Shown here: piece after piece, positions 57,653-61,316 of the stretch | How positions within the stretch are numbered: the first letter of the stretch is position 1 | Layout: every line of letters starts with the position of its first letter | Source of the DNA: a virus | Virus record (IMG/VR): IMGVR_UViG_3300044993_000080 | Span: 20,417 to 84,416 of that record | Strand: one strand, 5' to 3' | Length of the DNA stretch: 64,000 nt | Notes under the pieces: generated by a model | Seen by the model: only the letters and a program-made list of their open reading frames with translations | The model's database searches: none | Told to the model about the DNA's origin: nothing | Made by a program: the position numbers and the translations under genes

Positions 57653-58039
57653 TCAGAATTGACCTTTCAGGCGAAGTGCGTCGAGATATGCGATCTCGAC
57701 CTTAACCGCTTCATCATACTCGGCGAACAATAGCACATCATCGCCGTTGTGGTCCCGCGCCCAGCCGGACGGGGCGAGTGCCGTGAGCTTGTCGCCTGCG
57801 CGGTCAGCGCGCCAGCTTTCGGGCTGGCTGTTGCGAAAGGCGCTGAAGGTCAGTTTGCCGCGCCCGGCCTCTTGCAGCACGTCAATAAACCATGCTTGAC
57901 GCTCGGCGTCCCACTCGATCAGAGACGCGCGCTTGATGTCCGCCTTGCCGAACTGGCGAAGGTCCAGCCCTTGGCCGGGCTTGCGCTGAAGGCCGGACAT
58001 GGAACCGTCCCGGCCAATGGTGATTACCTGCCTGTGCAT
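57653..58039 (-). CDS. Unrecognised protein in the Ycf46-type group
   Basis: 128 residues behind GGGGGAG. Contains RASLIEWDAERQAWFIDVLQ, then APSGWARDHNGDDVLLFAEY, a beta-rich pattern. It follows the DUF2997 gene and precedes the 134-base gap before the initiator gene. In other DUF1257/DUF2997 clusters I do not recall a matching gene. The gap 57519-57652 holds a GGCCCTA/TAGGGGC hairpin near 57630 and a GCCGA/TCGGC hairpin near 57545. Confidence 0.72.
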   Translation of the reverse strand: MHRQVITIGRDGSMSGLQRKPGQGLDLRQFGKADIKRASLIEWDAERQAWFIDVLQEAGRGKLTFSAFRNSQPESWRADRAGDKLTALAPSGWARDHNGDDVLLFAEYDEAVKVEIAYLDALRLKGQF

Positions 58040-58104
58040 ATGGGTTCTCCCCCAGAAACGAACGGGGCGGGGCTCCCGTGAGAGACACCCGCCGCGCCCA
58101 GTTG

Positions 58105-58305
58105 TTACCAGCCCTGCTCGATCTGCGTTTCCGCGCTCTGCGAGTATTCGGGCTTGTATTCGCGGTCCCCTGCGTTGGGCTTGCCGCCCGCCAGCGCCTG
58201 CTCGATATGGGCGGTAGCTGCTTCACACGAGTTGCCCACGAACCCTTCAGCTTCGACCTTCTTGTTTCCCATGGGGTCGATGGTGATCTTGATTTTCTGA
58301 TCCAT
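58105..58305 (-). CDS. DUF2997 protein
   Basis: 66 residues. QKIKITIDPMGNKKVEAEGF, VGNSCEAATAHIEQALAGGK and YKPEYSQSAE fit DUF2997, whose hallmark is a short strand-rich start, GF.G..C and a KPEY end. DUF2997 genes usually sit next to DUF1257 and an AAA+ gene, as here. Function unknown. Confidence 0.88.
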   Translation of the reverse strand: MDQKIKITIDPMGNKKVEAEGFVGNSCEAATAHIEQALAGGKPNAGDREYKPEYSQSAETQIEQGW

Positions 58306-58332
58306 GATATGCGTTCCTTGTTGGTAGCGCGA

Positions 58333-58788
58333 TCAAACGACGGCGAGAATGATCTGGACGTTACCGTCCGCATCGACATCGCAGCTTTCGATGACATGCC
58401 CAGCAGCCATGGCTGCGTTCATGGCGACGTGCTTGCCGTATTCCTGCAAAAACCGCCCGATCTGGTGCTGGGTGTATTCTTGCGAAGCGTAGGCGGCGGT
58501 GCCGGGCACCGGGCACGTCGCGCCAAGGTAGCGCCCCACGTGACCCTGATAGACATCGAGCACGGGCTCATAGTTGCCCTCAGCATTGCGCTTCAAGCCG
58601 ACATCGTATGCACCGTCGAGTTTCAGCACGAGGTCGCATGTTTCCACGCTATCGTAGCCGTGGACGCGCGGCTTGGCGTTCTCGACAATGCGAACGTTGA
58701 TGCCCTGCGAATTGAGGCTTGCGACGGCCTGACGAACTGCGCCGAGATCGGTGATGACGATCCCCGACAACTTGGTAACGTGACTCAT
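58333..58788 (-). CDS. DUF1257 (Ycf35-like) protein
   Basis: 151 residues starting SHVTKLSGIVITDLGAVRQA, with DVGLKRNAEGNYEPVLDVYQ in the middle and FLQEYGKHVAMNAAMAAGHV near the end; this matches DUF1257, the family of plastid and cyanobacterial Ycf35. Biochemical role unknown. It has its own early-type promoter and is followed by DUF2997 after 27 bases. Confidence 0.88.
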   Translation of the reverse strand: MSHVTKLSGIVITDLGAVRQAVASLNSQGINVRIVENAKPRVHGYDSVETCDLVLKLDGAYDVGLKRNAEGNYEPVLDVYQGHVGRYLGATCPVPGTAAYASQEYTQHQIGRFLQEYGKHVAMNAAMAAGHVIESCDVDADGNVQIILAVV

Positions 58789-59514: not shown

Positions 59515-59534
59515 GTCATATTCCTGAATAGGGT

Positions 59535-59574
59535 GTCCGGCTGGCATCACTTATCGAGAGGGTGCCAGCCGGAC
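59535..59574 (-). promoter_or_regulatory. 12-bp perfect hairpin presenting an anti-leader loop
   Basis: GTCCGGCTGGCA (59574-59563) pairs with TGCCAGCCGGAC (59546-59535). The 16-base loop reads CCCTCTCGATAAGTGA on the minus strand, complementary to the leader TATCGAGAGGG type. It lies between the AAA+ stop and the next start, beside a second hairpin (GCGGTGTG/CACACCGC, 59579-59607). Confidence 0.75.
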
Positions 59575-59612
59575 TAAGCGGTGTGAAGGGAGATCACACA
59601 CACCGCCTGTTC

Positions 59613-61316
59613 TTACTCGGCAGGGTCAGTGTCGTCCCTGCTCAGGTTGGTCGCACGTATCTGCTGGCCGTCCACGAGGTGCACGGGCTTGCGGACGCGA
59701 CGCCTTGGTTGGATACGGGCTTCAGTCGAACGAGAGGCCGGGCGGGCGTTTTGCTCCGCCCATACTCTCATAGCTTCGAATTGCTCTGCGAACGCCTCGG
59801 ATAGCGGGCGCATAGTCGAAAGCTGCTCCGCGATTAGGTTGCCGTCCACCTGCCGCCCGGTGACAAACGCCTTAATTTTGGCGTCCTTGACTGCGGCCTC
59901 GATCTCGGCGGGCACAAACCCATCGGAGCCCGCGACTGCCGCCGCAAGGTTCTCCACGGTGTCCGGGTCCACCTTGCGCTTCCGCAAGTGGATTTTGATG
60001 ACCTCTTCGCGCTCCGCATCGTCCGGCACGGTGACGCTGAACACTTCGTCCAGTCGGCCCCGGCGTAGGAACTCGGCGGGCAAGTTATTGGTGCGGTTGG
60101 CCGTGGCAACCCAGAAGATCGGCGATGAACTTTCCTGCATGTGGGTAAGGATAGCCCCCAGCACGCGCTGGCTGATACCGCTGTCTCCGCCACTGCCAAG
60201 CTGGAACGCCTTGTCCACCTCGTCGAGCATGACTACGCAAGGTGCCATGGCGTCGAGCATTTTCAGGGCTGCGCGCACACGCTCTTCCGAACTGCCGACA
60301 ATCCCGTGGAACACTCGGCTCACGTCGAACTTGATAAGGGGAAGTCCCAGCTTGGCCGCCGCTGCTTTGGCGACAAGGCTCTTGCCGGTGCCGGGCGGTC
60401 CAATCAGAGCGATGCCCTTCGGGGCCTCGATCCCAGCGTCTGCGGCCTCTTGGCCGAAGCACCCGGCCCGCTCGTCCAGCCATTCCTTGAGATTGTCGAG
60501 CCCACCGATCTCGTCCATGTTGGCGCTCGGCATGACTTCCAGCACTTCGGAGCGCTTGACTACCTCGACCTTGACCTTCAGCACTTCGCGGGCGATCTCG
60601 TCACCGGACAGATTGGGGAGCTTGGTCTTGTGGGTGACGAGCGCTCGCGCCAGCGCAGTCTCGAACTCGTGCGCCGACATACCGGACCCCGCCGCAATGA
60701 TGTGCTGGCGGTCGTCATTGGTGAGACAGGGCTTCTTGTCGCGCGGCAAGTCGCGGATTTGCTCATCGAGCATGGTGCCCAATTCGGCGAAGCTCGGCGG
60801 GTCGAAGTCGAGGATCGTCACGTCGTCCTCAAGCTCGTTCGGAAGCTGATAGCCGGGCGGTGTCAGCAGGATCAGGCGCTTGGCATCGGCTTCGACACCG
60901 TAGCTGAAGCTGCGCGCGTATTCCTTGATGGCCTGCAACATCGAAGGCTGCACGCCACCCTGCTTGATCCAGTGCTGTGGATACATATAGACGTAGAACC
61001 CGCCGCCCATGTCGGAAGCTCCGTTGTCATTCAGGCCCTCAATCTTCTGAAGCGCCATGTTTGGGTCTTTGGTGCCGTCCGGTTCTTCCTGACGACCATC
61101 TGCTTTGAAGCAGGTCCAGCCATTCAGGACGGTCCACAACCAAAGCGGCATCTTCTGCGCAAATGAGAGCGCTTTGATGCTGTCCAGTGCGCGGTAAGGC
61201 TCGCGGGTCCGGCATACGACGACGCCGACTGCTGCGTTGTGCAGCACATTGAGGTTGGCGCGAAACAGGTCCGCATTGCGGACACTTGCCTGCTCGGTAG
61301 TCATTGATGTGGTCAC
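59613..61316 (-). CDS. Ycf46-type AAA+ ATPase
   Basis: 567 residues from GTG 61316, 6 bases after AGGGAG. The N-terminal 260 residues include the Ycf46 hallmark RLILLTPPGYQLPNELEDDV. AAA+ part: Walker A GPPGTGKS at 306-313, Walker B VVMLDE at 361-366, sensor 1 ATANRTN near 405, arginine finger RRGR near 418. C-terminal basic tag RIQPRRRVRKP. Ycf46 proteins occur with DUF1257 and DUF2997 in cyanobacteria and some bacteria, as here. Substrate unknown; the fold suggests remodelling of a protein or complex. Confidence 0.9.
   Translation of the reverse strand: MTTSMTTEQASVRNADLFRANLNVLHNAAVGVVVCRTREPYRALDSIKALSFAQKMPLWLWTVLNGWTCFKADGRQEEPDGTKDPNMALQKIEGLNDNGASDMGGGFYVYMYPQHWIKQGGVQPSMLQAIKEYARSFSYGVEADAKRLILLTPPGYQLPNELEDDVTILDFDPPSFAELGTMLDEQIRDLPRDKKPCLTNDDRQHIIAAGSGMSAHEFETALARALVTHKTKLPNLSGDEIAREVLKVKVEVVKRSEVLEVMPSANMDEIGGLDNLKEWLDERAGCFGQEAADAGIEAPKGIALIGPPGTGKSLVAKAAAAKLGLPLIKFDVSRVFHGIVGSSEERVRAALKMLDAMAPCVVMLDEVDKAFQLGSGGDSGISQRVLGAILTHMQESSSPIFWVATANRTNNLPAEFLRRGRLDEVFSVTVPDDAEREEVIKIHLRKRKVDPDTVENLAAAVAGSDGFVPAEIEAAVKDAKIKAFVTGRQVDGNLIAEQLSTMRPLSEAFAEQFEAMRVWAEQNARPASRSTEARIQPRRRVRKPVHLVDGQQIRATNLSRDDTDPAE

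Follow-up and report, generated by a model that had tools for sequence, protein, structure and literature searches.

A 64-kb stretch (hereafter the window) of IMGVR_UViG_3300044993_000080, an 84.4-kb IMG/VR virus contig, carries a cassette of five open reading frames (ORFs), all on the minus strand and running from position 61304 down to 57653. They encode an AAA+ ATPase resembling Ycf46, a protein here called X, a DUF1257 (Ycf35-type) protein, a DUF2997 protein and a protein here called Y. A short C-terminal peptide, R-x-hydrophobic-x-hydrophobic-COOH and often KRAIxL or GRALDL, was common to X, to most cyanobacterial and bacterial ATPases of this type, to membrane proteins with a helix-hairpin-helix (HhH) domain encoded beside bacterial ATPases, and to unrelated proteins of phages that carry the cassette. 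This common tag is new here. With a probability of about one half, the cassette encodes an AAA+ machine for remodelling or assembly that is directed by this peptide, and the phage docks its own proteins onto the ATPase complex.

X ended in GRALKL in the window and in RRAVKL, NRKLKL, GRKITI, RRALDL, GRVLDI, RRAINFD and similar sequences in its relatives. Tails of the same kind were found on bacterial ATPases (GGRTVDF, GRALDV, RKLEF) and on membrane-HhH proteins (GRIVDF, GRVLDF, GRTLDL). A strict version of the pattern (R.?[LIVMF][DE][LIVMFY]-COOH) matched 45 of 75 ATPases as against 10 of 984 other ORFs from the same loci (P 4e-49, kinship ignored). All ten non-ATPase matches adjoined an ATPase, and those that were read were membrane-HhH proteins. 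Tailed ATPases were also more often accompanied by DUF1257/DUF2997 genes than untailed ones (47/49 versus 14/33; odds ratio 32, P 5e-8, kinship ignored). Because one and the same peptide occurs on the ATPase, on its partner X and on unrelated proteins, and does so where DUF1257 and DUF2997 occur, it may serve to dock its carriers on one shared receptor within the ATPase complex. A different conserved ATPase end, QFVPLQL or close to it, was seen in L059, L063, L080, L094 and L018, mostly together with DUF1257/DUF2997 and without an RxLEF tail, and is possibly a second tail type. Zinc-ribbon/TPR-like proteins encoded beside bacterial ATPases (L061:9521-10225, L070:6424-7185, L076:3666-4460) carried RF[DE][RKW]LE, or a near variant, at their start, apparently as an N-terminal counterpart of the RxLEF tail.

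For phage proteins, a tag pattern was built from the tails of X and the ATPase, both of which were left out of the counts, and expected numbers were derived from internal positions of the proteins counted. Among the ORFs of five related phages (the window phage, G001, RHph_I4, p7 and G006), the tag was present on 30 of 624, with 2.6 expected (P 6e-22); for 13 cassette phages together, the count was 38 of 1496 (6.6 expected, P 5e-17). Three cassette-free phages, which have no DUF2997 and each encode a generic AAA ATPase, had no tagged protein among 383 ORFs (2.2 expected), a difference from the five related cassette phages that gave a Fisher value of 4e-7.

Besides X, four proteins encoded in the window were tagged (Table 1), and tagged proteins were mostly small accessory proteins. 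BRCT proteins of three cassette phages (248, 136, and 167 amino acids) had the BRCT domain and the tag in common; the tagged relatives were G001 34548-34958 (RRAIHL) and RHph_I4 EVC24_053 (KRNVKL), and a relative in RcZahn was untagged. The G001 relative of the phrog_1987-type protein ended in GGRGVSL, and versions of 142-143 amino acids in Caulobacter phages were untagged. Both proteins are tagged in phages with the cassette, and their homologues elsewhere are not. The 505-amino-acid protein had a homologue ending in RAVTLLDL in G001, and the protein at the same position in RHph_I4 ended in SRNVRI. The 223-amino-acid membrane protein had tagged counterparts at the same place in RHph_I4 (RRRVDLDD) and p7 (RRAIDLD). 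Tag-like sequences were also observed at the N-termini of the portal proteins of RHph_I4 (L240:10446-12206, STRAVRLDD) and G001 (G001:C1:9516-11321, RRAVNLGS); the window portal was without one. N-terminal and internal versions of the tag occurred at 4.4 per 10,000 residues in cassette phages and at 2.2 in controls and, being just about twice as common as in the controls, serve as leads only.

Table 1. Cassette genes, promoter-like sites and other tagged proteins in the window.
Feature	Position (strand)	Length (amino acids)	Description
AAA+ ATPase	59613..61304 (-)	563	Variable N-terminal half, C-terminal classical AAA domain
X	58873..59514 (-)	213	Predicted all-beta domain and disordered tail TRRGRALKL-COOH; homologues in syntenic position in every cassette phage
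DUF1257 (Ycf35-type)	58333..58788 (-)	151	Pfam PF06868
DUF2997	58105..58305 (-)	66	Pfam PF11211; invariant GxxC, C-terminal Trp
Y	57653..58039 (-)	128	phrog_38408 (E 1.5e-23)
Promoter-like site	61360..61388 (-)		TTGACATAAAAT-N11-TAGGTT, upstream of ATPase-X unit
Promoter-like site	58837..58865 (-)		Identical site, upstream of DUF1257-DUF2997-Y unit
BRCT protein	20214..20960 (-)	248	N-terminal BRCT domain; ends RKRRAIVL-COOH
phrog_1987-type protein	10190..10990 (-)	266	Ends TKRRVVRL-COOH
Portal-adjacent protein	3983..5500 (-)	505	Directly upstream of portal gene; ends KRRVQLDM-COOH
Membrane protein	5554..6225 (-)	223	N-terminal hydrophobic stretch; ends TRQINLD-COOH

A first-pass annotation had described the cassette as a compact five-gene block with two promoters beside replication genes, and each part of that description was borne out. 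All five ORFs were recovered, and Pfam searches confirmed the AAA domain (E 2.7e-29), DUF1257 (E 1.2e-9; 38.8 bits, above the curated cut-off of 22.2) and DUF2997 (E 2.5e-11; 43.7 bits, above the curated cut-off of 24.1). The ATPase, whose start is most likely 61304 (with a TTG at 61361 as the alternative), matched phrog_8638 (E 3e-164 over 542 of 563 residues); the PHROG families of the ATPase and of Y are both families of unknown function. In profile searches, neither X nor Y matched a Pfam family, and X did not match a PHROG either. The pattern TTGACA-N17-TAGGTT had exactly two matches in the 64 kb, without mismatches (0.10 expected from shuffling). As these promoter-like sites lie upstream of both the ATPase and the DUF1257 gene, the five genes probably constitute two co-regulated units. 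The adjoining replication module encodes an O-like initiator of 435 amino acids, a 208-amino-acid protein, a DnaB-like helicase and a family-A DNA polymerase (51448-54429, minus strand), which has an N-terminal uracil-DNA-glycosylase-like domain in the same chain.

The order of the cassette recurred in 18 further distinct phages and phage-plasmids of Rhizobium, Aeromonas, Pseudomonas, Rhodobacter and Agrobacterium, a count that allows for two of 13 IMG/VR relatives duplicating others counted; the first-pass statement that the ATPase, DUF1257 and DUF2997 genes are kept together was thereby upheld. The arrangement ATPase-X-DUF1257-DUF2997-(Y) was found in Rhizobium phages RHph_I4 and L338C, Aeromonas phage HJ05, Pseudomonas phage SM1, Rhodobacter phage RcTiptonus (with one intervening gene), Agrobacterium phage JP1 (with a Y-like gene further downstream) and the 109-kb Rhizobium bangladeshense phage-plasmid p7. 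In these named phages and p7, lysis and tail genes lay on one side of the cassette and replication genes on the other. The IMG/VR relatives had the ATPase, X, DUF1257 and DUF2997 genes in order in 13 of 13 cases and Y in 12 of 13. A neighbourhood survey had been set as the test that could refute a five-gene association beyond this phage, and the association was found in all relatives examined. Since the order recurs throughout these, X and Y genuinely belong to the phage cassette and are conserved in it. X evolves fast: its relatives shared 15-40% identity with the window copy and were still alignable, with G9, G70, G138 and R209 invariant, the last of these in the C-terminal tail. In a tree, the phage ATPases formed one clade with support 1.0, apart from every bacterial relative, and the phages with the polymerases closest to that of the window (22 records, at least 33% identity) were those carrying the ATPase. 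The p7 sequence (L010, NZ_CP071625.1) contains phage tail and capsid genes, and this phage-plasmid of the group encodes approximately 10 tagged proteins. In SM1 (L005), the DUF1257 gene (11130-11573) is apparently mis-annotated, the SM1_028/SM1_029 pair hiding its start.

Residues K308 (Walker A), D361 and E362 (Walker B) and the arginines R414 and R417 of the ATPase were invariant in all 106 homologues aligned. In two relatives, an intein (Intein_splicing plus HNH_3) interrupts the Walker A/P-loop of the cassette ATPase (L110:2374-4914, L111:7986-10553); on the grounds of intein biology, this location suggests that the ATPase is an indispensable enzyme. An AlphaFold2 model of X showed an all-beta domain (predicted local distance difference test score, pLDDT, 84.5), with residues 203-213 below 50, and the predicted disorder of the tail would be as expected of a docking peptide. 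The DUF1257 model showed an alpha/beta domain (pLDDT 88.5). Fold searches against the PDB yielded no confident match for either model, with no Foldseek hit at E 0.001; the best VIA-align results were Z 3.4 with a root-mean-square deviation (rmsd) of 4.7 over 80 residues for X, and Z 4.8 with an rmsd of 4.0 over 93 residues for DUF1257, which had no sequence relative in the PDB. G24 and C27 were invariant in alignments of DUF2997.

Outside phages, the window ATPase matched Ycf46-type proteins of Pseudanabaena and Geminocystis over approximately 90% of its length at 33-35% identity (tblastn), and alignments showed that its likeness to bacterial and cyanobacterial Ycf46-type proteins was full-length, with the N-terminal half included. 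The first-pass view that the set is known from cyanobacteria and plastids proved too narrow. The ATPase-DUF1257-DUF2997 triad turned up sporadically in Actinomycetota, Bacillota, Chloroflexota, Planctomycetota and other phyla, both on plasmids and on chromosomes. Plasmids on which the ATPase and DUF2997 genes accompany DUF1257, or a divergent version of it, were found in Rhodococcus, Paenarthrobacter, Paenibacillus, Bacillus, Manganitrophus and Pseudanabaena, and chromosomal contigs of many phyla carried the same three genes. Searched alone, DUF2997 was present in 3 of 249 Bacillota genomes, 2 of 246 from Actinomycetota and 12 of 201 from Chloroflexota; in the 3-kb neighbourhoods of these genes, DUF1257 was adjacent in most cases and the ATPase visible in several. 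These plasmid and chromosomal sets share the core triad with the phages, as well as a C-terminal tail on the ATPase and on an unrelated neighbour. Their recurrent partners were a 4Fe-4S single-cluster radical-SAM activase (Fer4_12) and a membrane protein with two transmembrane segments and a C-terminal HhH; a zinc-ribbon protein was a further partner. They lack X and Y, whereas the phage block lacks the radical-SAM and HhH partners. The first-pass idea that X and Y are missing components of the set therefore applies to the phage cassette and fails for the bacterial versions, which have the radical-SAM, HhH and zinc-ribbon proteins instead. On Treponema pTRESU01 (L013), a tailed ATPase and a radical-SAM activase lie directly upstream of a baseplate-V (spike) gene.

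In cyanobacteria, a DUF2997-ycf35-fed7 cluster has been described (PMC4284462). The phage set has three protein families in common with the Ycf46/Ycf35/DUF2997/Fed7 set of cyanobacteria and red-algal plastids, and the cyanobacterial Ycf46 tail (QRLEF or QRMEF) is of the same kind as the cassette tag. The phage set differs in having X and Y, in lacking an Fe-S protein and in its ATPases forming their own clade; the window ATPase fell outside the cyanobacterial/plastid Ycf46 clade. Because this phage clade is separate and fully supported, a cyanobacterial origin was rejected and the phage system is not a transplanted cyanobacterial one. In the open literature searched, no mechanism for Ycf46, Ycf35/DUF1257 or DUF2997 was found, and there was almost nothing on the set as a whole.

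In the proposed peptide-directed machine, the most likely receptor for the tag would be DUF1257, with or without DUF2997, linking tagged proteins to an ATPase ring that, at the expense of ATP, would unfold them, take them apart or load them. In phages with an ATPase that no longer has the tag, X may be the dedicated partner to bear it; the relatives L101, L102 and L104-L106 retain an ATPase tail or its remnant. The putative clients are the phage's own proteins: the BRCT protein, the membrane protein, the portal-adjacent protein and small unassigned proteins. As these are phage-encoded, the machine would probably organise phage replication or assembly complexes, and the tagged portal neighbours and the tag-like N-termini of two portals make a role in virion assembly possible. 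The first-pass proposal had been remodelling of a host complex. Remodelling is compatible with the intact catalytic residues, while a host complex as its target is not indicated, the tag pointing to phage-encoded clients.

Several observations weigh against this interpretation. The window ATPase ends in SRDDTDPAE and has no R-x-hydrophobic-[DE]-hydrophobic tail, so that a clear tail has been lost and X bears it instead. In pore loop 1, which is aromatic in some homologues and aliphatic (I or L) in the window subgroup, the aromatic position was often occupied by L, I, M or T, and a non-aromatic pore loop weakens the case for strict threading. The distant cassette phages HJ05, SM1, RcTiptonus, JP1 and Catdawg had essentially only X or the ATPase tagged, which makes wide client tagging a trait of one subgroup. 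The tag pattern was written after the tails of X and the ATPase had been seen and admits tail variants, the other phage proteins being out-of-sample, and the ORFs came from a length-greedy caller. Approximately half of the tailed ATPases were cyanobacterial, and the tail tests and counts are uncorrected for relatedness.

Other functions of the tag were considered. It could be a virion cargo signal: tagged proteins would enter the head via the portal, the ATPase serving as their loading chaperone, and would be ejected into the host. The presence of tagged proteins on both sides of the portal gene, the tag-like portal N-termini of RHph_I4 and G001 and the small size and diversity of the clients fit this explanation, which is nevertheless unlikely: bacterial ATPases and HhH membrane proteins outside phages bear this tail as well, the window portal has no such N-terminus and the cassette sits among replication genes. 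It is unlikely, too, that the tag is a MuA-like degron for host ClpXP or another host protease that times the removal of early proteins, with the cassette unrelated to it. MuA ends in RRKKAI, a ClpX tag (PMC8138137), which is close to KRAI/RRAI in sequence resemblance only, and the mostly small, accessory nature of the tagged proteins would fit; against this stand the lack of tagged ORFs in cassette-free phages and the tag on X, the ATPase and neighbouring bacterial partners, and the acidic tails (VDF, LEF) are unlike MuA.

We regard as improbable that the cassette is a defence or counter-defence module, with an ATPase that either acts as an IetA-like immune ATPase or disables such an enzyme. 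PADLOC IetA profiles matched the AAA domain (E 1.5e-21), which is similar to that of the anti-phage ATPase of IetAS, and related sets occur on plasmids and satellites. The PADLOC and NCBIfam searches gave generic AAA matches and nothing further, with 71.8 bits against an NCBIfam equivalog cut-off of 510; the phage ATPase has no partner protease, and the cassette is always present and apparently vertical in the phage clade, unlike typical accessory anti-defence genes. An auxiliary metabolic Ycf46/Ycf35 set, taken from cyanobacteria to serve host photosynthesis or CO2/iron physiology, shares DUF1257 and DUF2997 with the cassette and would accord with a report, known from its title as cited in PMC12172450, that Ycf46 regulates CO2 use in Synechocystis, but it is very improbable given mostly non-photosynthetic hosts, the separate clade of the phage ATPases and the wide occurrence of the set outside phototrophs.

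The docking interpretation has counterparts in known systems. HbYX-tailed proteasome activators (PAN/Rpt, Blm10, Pba1-Pba2) follow the same logic, as a single short C-terminal motif, present on an ATPase and also on partners unrelated to it, docks all of them on one receptor (PMC10349142); the phage system has another motif and no proteasome, and its receptor is a candidate only. Remodelling of MuA by ClpX offers a functional likeness, in that a phage protein is addressed to an AAA+ enzyme through a basic-hydrophobic C-terminus; the tag and the ATPase family differ, and in the cassette system the ATPase family is itself tagged. More tentatively, and at somewhat less than even odds, bacteria, plastids and phages may have in common an undescribed targeting system in which unrelated proteins are addressed by a short C-terminal peptide to a Ycf46-type AAA+ machine via DUF1257/DUF2997, and which in one phage lineage became a phage-wide addressing of 5-10 of its own proteins. 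On a 395-kb Gastranaerophilales contig the ATPase was the sole tagged protein, and proteome-wide tagging is therefore not general in bacteria.

Elsewhere in the window, the virus encodes a permuted alphaproteobacterial transfer-messenger RNA (23266-23661, minus strand; Rfam alpha_tmRNA, 117 bits; ARAGORN tag ANDNPQETALRLAA), which points to an alphaproteobacterial host. At 31618-33685 (minus strand), a PAPS-reductase-like protein (phrog_2302) adjoins a ParB-like protein.

The tail provides a first testable handle on Ycf46, Ycf35/DUF1257 and DUF2997: the peptide is defined, the tagged proteins are listed and the candidate receptors are few. If the proposed mechanism is true, a peptide-addressed AAA+ machine would stand beside ClpX/ssrA and the HbYX systems, the extra proteins of the phage cassette would be accounted for, and the mechanism would carry over directly to plastid and cyanobacterial Ycf46.

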